The position numbers and the translations under genes are program-made. Positions 42,968 through 47,696 of a DNA stretch of 64,000 bases are shown piece by piece (position 1 is the stretch's first letter; each line of letters starts with the position of its first letter). A model generated the notes under the pieces. That model did not search any database. It was not told the DNA's origin and saw nothing but the letters and a program-made list of their open reading frames with translations. Source of the DNA: Commensalibacter papalotli (ex Servin-Garciduenas et al. 2014) (lineage in GTDB: Bacteria; Pseudomonadota; Alphaproteobacteria; Acetobacterales; Acetobacteraceae); assembly GCF_000527695.1 (NCBI RefSeq), contig NZ_ATSX01000001.1, forward strand, positions 1,364,001 through 1,428,000, given 5' to 3'.

Positions 42968-43267
42968 TGGTGTCTACGGCGGGATTCGAACCCACGGCCC
43001 CAGGATTCATCTCACTACGATTTTCATCGCCATTGTGCTTGGCACAATGTTTGTAAGCTGGACTGTCTCTTTACCCTAGGATAAAATCCCGTAGGCACCA
43101 CCCGTACAGTCTCTACACCTTCCCTGTAAACAGGGCTTGGCTCGGGATTGGCATGGCAAGATCGCCGAAACGTTCCCCGAATTTGAGCGGATCCACTTTA
43201 TCGTTTCCCTATAAAGCGCCCAATTAGTTTAGGAATCCTGTGCTCTATCCTGCTGAGCTACGCAGAC
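42968..43267 (-). tRNA. tRNA-Arg(CCU), interrupted by a group I intron
   Basis: Read on the minus strand, the 5' exon (43267-43231) gives acceptor GTCTGCG, TA, D-arm GCTC...GAGC, anticodon stem CAGGA and loop start TTCCT. The 3' exon (43007-42968) gives AA, TCCTG, GGGCC, T-arm GTGGG-TTCGAAT-CCCGC, acceptor CGTAGAC, discriminator A and encoded CCA. Joined, they form a 77-nt tRNA with anticodon CCU, one G-U pair in the acceptor stem and standard loops. The intron lies directly after the anticodon. The gene is 23 bases downstream of holA on the same strand. CCU reads the AGG codon. Confidence 0.95.
43008..43230 (-). ncRNA. group I self-splicing intron in tRNA-Arg(CCU)
   Basis: A 223-nt intron. 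The 5' exon ends in U, the intron ends in G, and GGGAA in the intron pairs with the exon UUCCU including the splice-site U-G wobble. Core elements are present in order: AATTCGGGGAACG (P), AATCCCGAGCCAAG (Q), AGAGACTGTACG (R) and AAAGAGACAGTCC (S). P7 forms between bases 43106-43111 and 43061-43066. Peripheral hairpins are seen at 43122-43135, 43075-43095 and 43031-43049. No homing endonuclease ORF is inside. It resembles the tRNA-Arg(CCU) intron of Agrobacterium and the tRNA-Ile intron of Azoarcus. Confidence 0.93.
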
Positions 43268-43290: not shown

Positions 43291-44355
43291 TTATAAATTT
43301 GAAAAGAGCTTGCGTTCATCTAATGATATTTTTTTACCTTGAACATGCCCAGAAACCGTTAACATAAAATGCTGACATAAAACCTCTGCGGGGGTTGCTG
43401 TTTGTTTACACAAATATTCCAGCTTTTGCACATAACGCAATAACAATGACAAGGATTGAGAATTCCAACTATCTAATGCTTTTAAAAAACTGTCCGTTCG
43501 TTTAAAAAAAACAGGGGGACTTAACTTAGAAATCGCTAGTTTTGCTGGCGTCCCTTCCTCTAATAAAAAACGAGCCTGTAATAAACGATCTGTGTGCTGT
43601 AATAAACTGCGCGTCAAAGCAATCATATTAACCCCTTCTTTAAGGGCTTTATTAAGGGCTTTGTCAGCGATTGCTGTTTGACCACTCATAACCGCATAAA
43701 CAACATCATCAACAGAATATTCTCCAGCATCTCCAATTGCTTGCTGCACATGAATAAGAGTAATTTCTGAGTCTTGACCTACATATAACAGTAATTTTTC
43801 TATTTCATTACGAATAAGGGCCCTATCCGCTCCTAAAATCGCAACTAAATAACGAAAAGCATCTGATCCAATTCTCTTTTTTCCTAATAAAAAACGAACT
43901 GTCTCTTCCAAAGAGCGTCCAGTTTCTGCGTAACAAGGGATAGAAGCTATAAGCGGATGTTTTTCAGCTAAGATACGTAATGGTGATTTAGGGGACAGAC
44001 TGCCAGCCTCGATAATAATTATAGAATCAAAGCTTGATGGATCAATAATATCCGTCGAGTATAGATTACAAAATAATTCTAAAGGCTTATTAAGACTATC
44101 TACAGCTTCTCTAACCCAAATAGCACGCTGTCCTCCCATTAAAGAAAGCGCTGTTGCCTCCTCTCTCAATCGTTCGTGACTCTCTTTATTTAGTACACAA
44201 ATTTGAAAAGGATCATCTAAACGACCTGCAACTTTTTTAACAAGTTGGCTTGCTCTTTCACGAACCAAACCACTATTTTCACCATAAATCAAATAGACAC
44301 GAAATTTTATAGGGCCTTGTAAAAGACTCATAATATTTCGTGCATCTATTTTCAT
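43291..44355 (-). CDS. holA: DNA polymerase III subunit delta
   Basis: A 354-residue clamp-loader subunit. The AAA+-like N-domain starts with GPIKFRVYLIYGENSGLVRERA, followed by GQRAIWVREAVDSLNKPLE, a lid region and the C-terminal collar domain. It opens the beta sliding clamp together with tau/gamma and delta prime in the DNA polymerase III holoenzyme. It follows lptE by 18 bases in the DUF3576-leuS-lptE-holA gene set, a conserved alphaproteobacterial order, and precedes the intron-bearing tRNA gene. Confidence 0.92.
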   Translation of the reverse strand: MKIDARNIMSLLQGPIKFRVYLIYGENSGLVRERASQLVKKVAGRLDDPFQICVLNKESHERLREEATALSLMGGQRAIWVREAVDSLNKPLELFCNLYSTDIIDPSSFDSIIIIEAGSLSPKSPLRILAEKHPLIASIPCYAETGRSLEETVRFLLGKKRIGSDAFRYLVAILGADRALIRNEIEKLLLYVGQDSEITLIHVQQAIGDAGEYSVDDVVYAVMSGQTAIADKALNKALKEGVNMIALTRSLLQHTDRLLQARFLLEEGTPAKLAISKLSPPVFFKRTDSFLKALDSWNSQSLSLLLRYVQKLEYLCKQTATPAEVLCQHFMLTVSGHVQGKKISLDERKLFSNL

Positions 44356-44373
44356 AATAATAATCCAACACTA

Positions 44374-45087
44374 TTAATTACCAGGTGCATCTTCTGGTTT
44401 CATATTATCCATACCTACAGGAATCATCGTATTTCGCCCCGTTGCCATCGCAGGGAAACCATCAGAACCAGCACTTTGCGTTGCAGCACCGTTTGTACCA
44501 GGATTCATACTTGGTAACATATAATTGGGCTTTGGTGTATCTGGTGTTGCTGCTTTGGTTTGATAAGTATCGTTATTTCTGAACCATGTTGCAACCTGTT
44601 GGGTTACTTCATCGGCTAAATTTTTAGCAACACGCGCTTGTGCTGTTTCGTCATTTAGACTTTGTGCAAAATATTGCTCGTACGTTACCGTATATCCGTC
44701 CATTGCCTGTGCATCACCTTGCGCAATAACAACGGGATTGATAGAAATGGTCTTTAGTGCCCAATGTGCCCTACCAATCATTCTTGCACGACCAGAAGAG
44801 TTATCATGATGAATATCAATTGCCTCTTCATTTAAGCTTGGAGAAACATCCAATTGGTACGTTTTAGGATCTTCGGGTCCTGCTCCAGCAAGATTTTGTT
44901 GCAATGATTGGCGCACTAGCTGTCCATAACGGTCAGACAATACAGGAACATAAATTTTCTGTAATTCGCTATTTACATCCAGATTAGCGCTTTTGCCATA
45001 CATGGGTTTAAATCCACATCCTGACAACATCACTCCAATCCCTAACAATACGCCAGAGGTTTTTAATAATTGACTAATTCGTTTCAT
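44374..45087 (-). CDS. lptE: LPS-assembly lipoprotein LptE
   Basis: A 237-residue outer-membrane lipoprotein with lipobox LSGC and lipidated Cys24, then GFKPMYGKS, the LptE signature start. The fold core ([60 protein letters not shown]) is standard; the C-terminal ~60 residues are a low-complexity Pro/Asn/Gly/Met tail. LptE plugs the LptD barrel for lipopolysaccharide delivery to the surface. Its ATG overlaps the leuS stop by 4 bases (ATGA), so it is translationally coupled. Confidence 0.9.
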
Positions 45088-47696
45088 CCGCTTACCACAA
45101 AGTTAACGATTTTATTAGGAACATGAATGGTCTTAATAATAGTTTTCCCATCCAAGAATTTCGCAACTGCCTTTTCTGAACGTGCCAGCTCTATAACAGC
45201 ATCTTTATCCATATCAGGAGCAACCTCAATCGTTGCCCTTAATTTCCCTTTGATTTGCACCGCAATGATAACCCGTGTTGCCGCCAACAATGCATCATCA
45301 GCTATTGGCCAAGGGGTTTGTGCAACCAATTCTTGAACACCAAGTAATCGCACCATATCTTCGGCCATATGCGGAACCAAAGGTCCAGATAATAGGCTTA
45401 ACATATAAGCTGCTTCACGACGGGCAAAATCCACCCCGACTTCTTTGGCTTGCTTTTCAGCATCTGCAACTGCGTTTGTCAGCTCATGCAAGCGGGCAAT
45501 CGCCACATTCATTGCAAACCCATCCAATGCCTCTGTCACAGCCACAATGGTGCGATGCGTCATACGACGCAAATCATCTGCGCTTTGTGCAATTTGCTCC
45601 GGCAAAGAAACGTCAACTGGAACATCTTGTGCAATAATAGACACAACACGATATAGACGTTGCAAGAAACGAGAGGTTGCAACAGCGCCCTCTTCTGTCC
45701 ATTCCATATCCCGTTCTGGTGGATTATCAGACAAAATAAACCAACGCGCGGTATCCGCACCAAAACGTTCTATGATCGCAGAAGGCGCAATCGTATTTTT
45801 CTTAGATTTGGACATTTTTTCAATACGTCCAACCATAACTGCTTCGCCAGTATCACGGGTTACAAAACCAGCATCTGTTTTTTTGATTTCATCAGGGGAT
45901 AACCACTCACCCGCAGCATCTTTATAGCTTTCATGCATTACCATGCCTTGGGTAAACAATGCCTTGAAAGGCTCTTGCATTCCCACTTCATCAATGGTGT
46001 TTAAAGCACGGGTAAAAAAACGTGCATAAAGCAAATGAAGAATAGCATGTTCAATCCCACCGATATATTGATCGACTGGCATCCAGCGGTTTACCGCTTC
46101 ATGATCAATTGGATCGGAGGAATGCGGTGCCGTAAAACGTGCAAAATACCAAGAACTGTCAACGAATGTATCACAGGTATCGGTTTCTCTTTGTGCCTTG
46201 CCATGACATTTTGGACAGTCAACATGCTTCCAGGTCGGATGATTATCCAAAGGGTTTCCAGACAAAGAAAAATCAACATCTTCTGGTAAAATCACTGGCA
46301 ATTGATCTTCTGGAACAGGCACAACACCACAAGTTGGGCAGTGAATTACAGGAATTGGGCAGCCCCAATAACGTTGACGAGATAATCCCCAATCCCGTAA
46401 ACGCCAATTAACAATCTTTTCACCAATGCCCATTTCTTCCAAACGTGCAATCGCTGCTTTCTTGGCTTTGGCAATCGTCAAACCATTTAAAAAATCGGAA
46501 TTAATTAATACACCATCACCCGCATGTGGCTTGTCTGTAACCACGAATTGTGTTGGATCTTCACCTTGCGGCATCACCACGGTTTTAAAAGCAAGGTTAT
46601 ATTTACGGGCAAAATCAATATCGCGTTGATCGCCTGATGGGCATCCGAAAACAGCACCTGTGCCATAATCCATCAACACAAAATTAGCAATCCAAACAGG
46701 GAATTTTTGATTAGGTATAAAAGGATGAATGACTTGCAAGCCTGTATCCACGCCTTTTTTCTCTGCCTTTTCGATAACTTCTTCAGAAGTACCCATGCGG
46801 TGGCATTCTGCTATAAACTCACCAAGTTTAGAGTTGTTTTTAGCCAATTTTGCAGCGATTGGATGATCAGGAGAAATCGCTAAAAACGCCATTCCAAATA
46901 ACGTATCTGGGCGTGTGGTAAAGACTTCAACGGATTGTAAAGCTTCTTCGAAATCAGATGGTGCATGATCCAAAGTAAACCGAACTTTTGCGCCTTCTGA
47001 ACGTCCTAACCAGCGTTCTTGCATGGTTTTAACGCGTTCTGGCCAATTATCTAATGTTTTTAAACCATCCAACAAAGGCTGGGCAAATTTGGTAATTTTA
47101 AAGAACCATTGAAAGAGTTGTTTCTTTTCAATTAACGCACCAGAACGCCAACCTCTTCCATCAATAACTTGCTCATTGGCCAGCACTGTTTGATCTTCTG
47201 GATCCCAATTAACCCAACTTTCACGGCGCTCCAACAAGCCTTCCTTCATCAAACGAAGGATTAATTTTTGCTGCTGTCCGTAATATTCAGGTTGGCATGT
47301 TGCAAATTCACGATCCCAATTCAAGGAAAAGCCCAAACGTTTGAGCTCTGCTCGCATCGCAGCAATATTTTCCATTGTCCATTTTGCTGGTGATACACCA
47401 CGGCTTTTTGCTGCATTTTCAGCAGGCAATCCAAAAGCATCCCATCCCATAGGATGTAAAACACTATATCCACGGGCACGCTTATACCGAGCAACCACGT
47501 CCCCCAGTGTGTAATTCCGCACATGGCCCATATGTAATTGCCCCGAAGGATATGGAAACATCTCTAGGACATAGTATTTGGGCAAATTAGGGTCAGGAAC
47601 ATTGGGAACGTCAAACAAGCGACGCTTTTCCCATTCTTGTTGCCAAAATGGTTCAGTGTGTTGGAAATTATACGAAAAAGAAGAAGAGTCGCTCAT
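45084..47696 (-). CDS. leuS: leucyl-tRNA synthetase
   Basis: An 870-residue class Ia synthetase of full length. HIGH-type motif [19 protein letters not shown] is near residue 45, the CP1 editing domain contains [14 protein letters not shown] and [17 protein letters not shown], and the catalytic KMSKS loop is in [14 protein letters not shown]. The zinc-ribbon insertion ([26 protein letters not shown]) and the C-terminal tRNA-binding domain are present. The ATG at 47696 follows DUF3576 with a 24-base gap. lptE overlaps its stop codon. Confidence 0.97.

Follow-up and report, generated by a model that had tools for sequence, protein, structure and literature searches.

The question raised by this locus is whether a short stretch of the Commensalibacter papalotli genome, in which annotation tools at their default settings see no RNA gene, holds a tRNA-Arg(CCU) gene split by a group I intron, and, if so, how the intron came to be there. 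The window, by which we mean the whole stretch of 64,000 nucleotides that was analysed, is C3:1364001-1428000 of a 2.33-Mb draft genome in 12 contigs. ARAGORN with default settings called no tRNA gene in the whole window, and Rfam at its curated cut-offs listed nothing for it. With introns allowed, ARAGORN called one gene in the whole window, tRNA-Arg c[42968,43267] (cct) i(38,223), with limits identical to those given in an earlier note on this DNA. The silence of both programs at default settings is what would speak for a chance resemblance or an assembly artefact, a possibility so small as to be practically negligible: the intron mode made no call in 20 mononucleotide shuffles of the window, and the occurrence of the same gene in congeners and in named relatives refutes it.

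The gene is a tRNA-Arg(CCU) on the minus strand (43267..42968), 77 nt long once joined and with its CCA encoded. The 5' exon (43231..43267, 37 nt) ends in the anticodon CCU (34-36), and the 3' exon (42968..43007, 40 nt) starts with A37 A38 and carries the T-arm and the encoded CCA. Between them, also on the minus strand, lies a group I intron of 223 nt (43008..43230) whose last base is a G (omega-G, 43008), so that the insertion point falls between U36 and A37 in the anticodon loop, directly after CCU. Joining the exons gives a complete cloverleaf with the anticodon stem CAGGA/TCCTG and an acceptor stem that has one G-T and no mismatch. A search of the window for a second tRNA 3' end found only the tRNA-Arg(CCU) itself. 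The complete tRNA, the 223-nt intron with a U.G pair at the splice site and a terminal G, and the lack of an endonuclease ORF were all claimed in the earlier note and all hold (the longest ORF wholly within the intron is 27 aa); the strand, which that note did not give, is minus.

The identity as a group I intron in tRNA-Arg(CCU) is supported by the ARAGORN call with introns, by an Rfam score just below the cut-off, and by covariation among homologues. On 801 bases around the gene, the Rfam model Intron_gpI (RF00028), the check that the earlier note had proposed for 43008-43230, scored 49.7 bits (E 1.5e-11), which falls short of its gathering cut-off of 50 by 0.3. Each of the nine genomes of the genus contains a group I match with an E-value of 0.001 or lower, and eight of them lie above the Rfam cut-off; the window genome is the sole congener under it and has the lowest score of the nine. 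Two Rfam matches elsewhere in the window genome, L002 (E 0.011) and L003 (E 0.47), were gone in a repeat search at E 0.1.

On the window sequence we drew P1 to P9, including the P3/P7 pseudoknot, all on the minus strand. P1 (43219..43233) pairs the exon CCU and intron AA (43233-43229) with the guide UUGGG (43223-43219), which places a U.G at the 5' splice site; the AA of the 3' exon can pair with the same UU of the guide as P10. The pseudoknotted P3-P7 core with P4, P6, and P8 is present. P3 (43098..43190) joins CCGCUC at 43190-43185 with GGGUGG at 43103-43098, and P7 (43061..43111), which forms the pseudoknot with P3 and encloses P8, joins GACUGU at 43111-43106 with ACAGUC at 43066-43061; by analogy, P7 would be the guanosine site. 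P4 (43142..43180; UCGGG at 43180-43176 with CCCGA at 43146-43142) encloses P5 and P5a. P6 and P6a (43117..43141) consist of GCC/GGU (43141-43139 with 43119-43117) and CCCUG/CAGGG, respectively, and P9, P9a, and P9b (43011..43057) of CUUAC/GUGAG, CAUUGUG/CACAAUG, and CGAU-GAAA-AUCG.

The drawn helices were examined for covariation in an alignment (A1) of 50 of the 54 parsed introns, all from Acetobacteraceae, with 49 distinct rows and 66 drawn pairs. Four long introns were left out by hand (L066, 259 nt; L068, 314 nt; L082, 288 nt; L111, 266 nt), and L056 (265 nt) was retained. Of the 3182 cells in these 49 rows, 92.5% were paired vs. 79.7% in shuffled alignments and 30.6 to 42.3% after displacement by one to three columns, with the qualification that P4 and P5 were redrawn after the alignment had been viewed, which favours the structure, especially in P5. 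Cells with a change on both sides numbered 475 vs. 148.7 in shuffled alignments, and the covariation score was 0.421 vs. 0.171. Counted by pairs, 35 of the 66 have changes on both sides, little over the shuffle mean of 30.0, and one of 500 shuffles reached 35. These changes are distributed over P2 (6 of 8 pairs), P3 (3 of 6), P5 (2 of 2), P5a (3 of 3), P6a (5 of 5), P9a (6 of 7), and P9b (4 of 4). P4, P6, and five of the six P7 pairs are invariant among the homologues, and the sixth P7 pair is unpaired in 26 of 49 rows; P3, P4, and P6 are paired in 100% of cells, and P8 as drawn pairs poorly (62.2, 74.7, and 44.0% of the cells of its three segments). The U-G pair at the splice site is found in 48 of the 49 distinct rows, the lone C-G being that of L045, in which the alignment displaces CCU by one column. 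A covariance model (R1) was built from the 50 introns of A1 and hence from Acetobacteraceae only; its score of 229.2 bits for the window intron is not independent, as that intron is one of the 50 training rows.

There are 42 tRNA matches in the draft genome (one, at a contig end, without an ARAGORN call), and among them ARAGORN called no uninterrupted tRNA-Arg(CCU); the other arginine tRNAs called in the genome are UCU, CCG, and ACG. The earlier note had named another intact tRNA-Arg(CCU) gene, together with a lack of splicing of the split one, as what would speak against its reading; no such gene was found in the draft, which has gaps. Because neither tRNA-Ile(GAU) nor tRNA-Ala(UGC) was called in the draft genome and one tRNA is cut at a contig end, the tRNA set is incomplete, and a second CCU gene may lie in a gap. 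AGG is rare, as had been supposed: it makes up 43 of 17,767 codons in the 47 window ORFs of 150 aa or more and is the third-rarest sense codon among them. By textbook wobble, tRNA-Arg(UCU) could also read AGG. With the gene missed by ARAGORN and Rfam defaults, AGG decoding would seem dependent on tRNA-Arg(UCU) alone, and an intron-aware search restores the tRNA.

On one hand, the existence of tRNA-Arg(UCU), the rarity of AGG, and an Rfam score lower than that of any congener would fit a degenerate intron that no longer splices, in which case wobble would serve AGG and the locus would be a pseudogene. However, pairing is complete in the exon stems, the base pairs of the drawn structure are present in the window sequence and show covariation among homologues, and gene and intron persist in congeners, so that we consider a pseudogene extremely unlikely. 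We are instead very confident that the locus is a compact, endonuclease-free group I ribozyme lodged in the anticodon loop of a tRNA-Arg(CCU) gene, the only one found.

The surroundings of the gene offer a plausible source of its precursor. The ORF of holA (DNA polymerase III delta; 43291..44355, minus strand) ends 23 nt upstream of the tRNA on the same strand. Further upstream are a 237-aa ORF without a Pfam match (44374..45087, minus strand), which occupies the place of lptE and is called by that name here, and leuS (leucyl-tRNA synthetase; 45084..47696, minus strand). Since the holA ORF ends so close by and on the same strand, co-transcription of the tRNA with leuS-lptE-holA is plausible. 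In 22 of 25 Acetobacteraceae, leuS is on the same contig as the tRNA at 0.8 to 3.4 kb, and in 10 of those 22 the orientation and distance (1.8-2.0 kb) are as in the window; in the other three the two genes lie on different contigs of fragmented assemblies. Among five genomes of other families, the tRNA is away from leuS in four and on a separate contig in the fifth. Between 42600 and 43600, there are six promoter-like sites vs. a shuffle mean of 3.1 (sd 1.8) and one terminator-like site, on the plus strand, vs. a shuffle mean of 1.0. One of the promoter-like sites, on the minus strand within holA upstream of the tRNA (43351..43323), is weak (9 of 12 matches), and a promoter of the tRNA's own at this site is conceivable.

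Group I splicing uses guanosine, and the anatomy of the locus lends itself to the usual order of events. The precursor may form the 3' end of a transcript that runs from leuS through lptE and holA to the tRNA. In it, the guide UUGGG would pair with the end of the 5' exon in P1, where the U.G would mark the 5' splice site, and exogenous guanosine docked in P7 would cleave after U36. P10 (AA with UU) and the terminal G would define the 3' site, the exons would be joined at the terminal G, and the joined exons would undergo ordinary tRNA maturation. We infer activity and the use of guanosine from the splicing of the Bartonella homologue (PMC7717549) and from general knowledge of group I introns.

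Much of this is already known from other bacteria. The introns of Azoarcus tRNA-Ile and cyanobacterial tRNA-Leu(UAA), which belong to group IC3, are likewise compact, are located in the anticodon loop, and have a GAAA loop in the P9 region (P9b in the window), yet differ from the window's intron in tRNA and insertion point. Closer is the family of tRNA-Arg(CCU) introns first found in Agrobacterium tumefaciens, so that the earlier note was right that the same tRNA carries an intron in Agrobacterium (PMC7717549). Its member in Bartonella bacilliformis, BbgpI, interrupts the same tRNA and is reported to splice in vivo and to self-splice in vitro (PMC7717549). The family resembles the window intron in its tRNA, in the CCU at the splice sites, and in its P1-P9 structure; it differs in its host family. 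Two named Bartonella loci scored 207.3 and 208.9 bits with the Acetobacteraceae-only model R1. Within the window's own family, footnote c of Table 1 in PMC4596401 records a tRNA (Arg) interrupted by sequence with homology to group I introns and marks Asaia, Acetobacter, Gluconobacter, a vinegar genome (Komagataeibacter by the text), and Gluconacetobacter; the footnote itself gives no anticodon, structure, or distribution, and Commensalibacter is not among the rows considered. In the titles and abstracts listed, which leave subscription journals mostly uncovered, nothing was found on this intron in Commensalibacter or on bacterial tRNA-Thr or tRNA-Asn hosts. The tRNA-Arg(CCU) intron family is thus already known from Agrobacterium, Bartonella, and five acetic acid bacteria, and its mechanism is well known; what is added here is a Commensalibacter member, a covariation test, and family counts, for what is a well-formed but ordinary example.

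In eight of the nine congeners, the locus reads as a tRNA-Arg(CCU) interrupted at this same position, and both splice sites agree (L001, L045, L047-L052; by eye and exon pattern). The ninth, G008 (L046, contig C9), gives 69.4 bits for its group I match, and its 5' exon and intron resemble the same tRNA and site; its contig ends in the P9 region before the 3' exon, and the locus is without a parse and so is left out of the eight. The closest among 80 named loci is that of Commensalibacter intestini A911, at 92.2% over 308 columns for the tRNA and intron and 81.0% over 4459 columns for the leuS-holA stretch, both against the window.

The sporadic occurrence of such introns is the subject of a 1999 paper cited in PMC7717549. 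R1 has matches in 116 of 249 family genomes (105 of the 210 good-quality ones; 54 of 102 genera). RF00028 has matches in 68 of the 249, only 14 of them above its cut-off, and its curated cut-off thus misses many introns of this lineage. With respect to the state of tRNA-Arg(CCU), 97 of the 249 genomes are interrupted, 120 are intact, 32 have no state call, and none has both. The interrupted cases were read by exon pattern (52), by ARAGORN on joined exons (40), or by eye where the splice limits of the model were shifted (five: L187, L191, L198, L213, and L214); 48 of them are R1 training rows and 49 are not. The 120 intact cases are BLAST rows of the spliced tRNA at 86.9 bits or more, copied by hand with their genus numbers from a listing that goes down to 67.1 bits; when 20 of the weakest were fetched, 19 were CCU and one, an extra row of G140, was CCG. 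The comparison across relatives that the earlier note had proposed gives the same site in eight of nine congeners and an interrupted gene in 97 of the 217 family genomes with a state call. Seven of 50 genera with at least two such genomes are mixed, vs. a mean of 38.5 under permuted states. These counts (97, 120, 32, and 0) form a usable data set on intron gain and loss in a seemingly sole-copy tRNA gene.

Beyond the family set, a pattern scan of named genomes gave at least 118 stretches, and 116 of the 118 among those listed parse as split tRNA-Arg(CCU); of the exceptions, L328 is cut by the locus end and L365 is without a parse. By NCBI family, the 116 include 83 Acetobacteraceae, 11 Bartonellaceae, seven Azospirillaceae, and six Aurantimonadaceae, with the remainder in others or unnamed; the scan totals are lower bounds, and since the pattern fixes an Acetobacteraceae-like exon, other hosts are undercounted.

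A sole CCU gene, a rare codon, and guanosine-dependent splicing are also what one would expect of a regulatory switch, in which the splicing rate, as a function of guanosine, Mg2+, or temperature, would set the supply of the AGG-reading tRNA. The earlier note had likewise raised the idea that the splicing rate could limit translation of genes that contain AGG. Against a switch, the gene is intact in 120 of the 217 genomes and seven genera are mixed, and other tRNAs also harbour this lineage, all of which a neutral mobile element fits better; we judge a switch very unlikely. Most likely, the intron is a selfish element that is tolerated and for the most part inherited.

Descent was assessed from distances because the intron tree is poorly resolved beyond the genus: three of 27 inner branches are starred, and the signal becomes too small past that level. 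The four genomes of the window's genus form one starred clade (98/87). Within the family, intron distance follows LeuS distance (Spearman 0.570, with none of 5000 permutations as high), also when one genome of the window's genus is retained (0.476, 1 of 5000), and over all 30 genomes the correlation is weaker (0.351, 12 of 5000). The introns of two genomes of one other family (f51) show median distances of 0.279 and 0.283 to the 25 from Acetobacteraceae, the nearest being at 0.189 and 0.175, vs. a median of 0.314 among the Acetobacteraceae introns themselves; the LeuS proteins of these two genomes differ from those of the nearest ones by 0.42-0.43. This comparison, from two genomes only, suggests transfer of the intron across families. 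The earlier note had proposed that the intron is either old or repeatedly spread, and each half stands in part: age agrees with the matches in nine of nine congeners and with intron distances that track host distances within the family, and repeated spread with the mixed genera and with the two other-family introns close to those of Acetobacteraceae. Within the genus the intron has been inherited; within the family there has at times been gain or loss, and transfer between families has probably occurred at times.

The same intron lineage is not confined to one tRNA. The 129 family matches of R1 comprise 97 in Arg(CCU), 16 in Leu(UAA), six in Thr(GGU), two in Leu(CAA), two in Arg(UCU), two in odd Leu-like tRNAs, one in a Lys-like tRNA, one in Asn(GUU), one truncated copy, and one probable false match. 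Judgement by eye against the ARAGORN call was applied to L221 and L227 (two of the six in Thr(GGU)), to L078 (Lys-like), and to L106 and L223 (odd Leu-like), and R1 covers only part of the Asn(GUU) case (L053). The Thr(GGU), Arg(UCU), Lys-like, and Asn(GUU) hosts are found at L079, L088, L092, L229, L221, L227, L110, L115, L078, and L053. L106 and L223, both from genus g25, are class II Leu-like tRNAs with an odd joined anticodon loop (unknown and UAG according to ARAGORN), and L109 is a class II tRNA that reads as Leu(CAA). In 385 genomes of the class, R1 has matches in 50 (58 places), and the 25 outside the family among the best 30 of the 58 places are in Leu(UAA) (16), Arg(CCU) (five), Thr, Lys, and Gln (one each), and one cut locus.

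One reading of these hosts, which we put forward tentatively and at somewhat less than an even chance, is that a single endonuclease-free lineage moved repeatedly among Acetobacteraceae tRNA genes, presumably by P1-guided reverse splicing, and so reached Leu(UAA), Leu(CAA), Thr(GGU), Arg(UCU), Lys-like, Asn(GUU), and odd Leu-like hosts besides Arg(CCU). If true, the Acetobacteraceae would be a natural experiment in protein-free intron transposition. The truncated copy, L230 (G175:C1:1816798-1817160), is a second one that lacks its 5' portion; it keeps the intron's 3' part together with the whole 3' tRNA-Arg exon, and resembles the duplicate expected at an integration site.

A member of the lineage was also encountered on resistance plasmids. 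On NZ_CP023816.1 there is a tRNA-Leu(UAA) gene that lacks annotation, seems complete, and contains a group I intron of the same lineage (L044:2433-2733; 172.7 bits with R1 and 36.6 bits with Rfam), in the order DUF3883/hypothetical block, tRNA-Leu(UAA), AAA ATPase, and then aac(3)-IId. NC_004464.2 (L401) has a core match at the same place, and the tRNA is beside aac(3)-IId in both plasmids examined. No mention of this plasmid intron was found in the literature titles and abstracts listed. At least 80% of the tRNA-Leu(UAA) is contained in 1257 of 72,556 plasmid records, and 1276 of 1280 matching records are at 99% or more. Its best match among the 385 alphaproteobacterial genomes is 86% over 298 bases (G316), and in the available flanks of the five best, similarity stops at the tRNA save for one 65-base match (E 5e-4, L404). 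The sequence comparison suggests that the plasmid segment was captured from an alphaproteobacterial chromosome.
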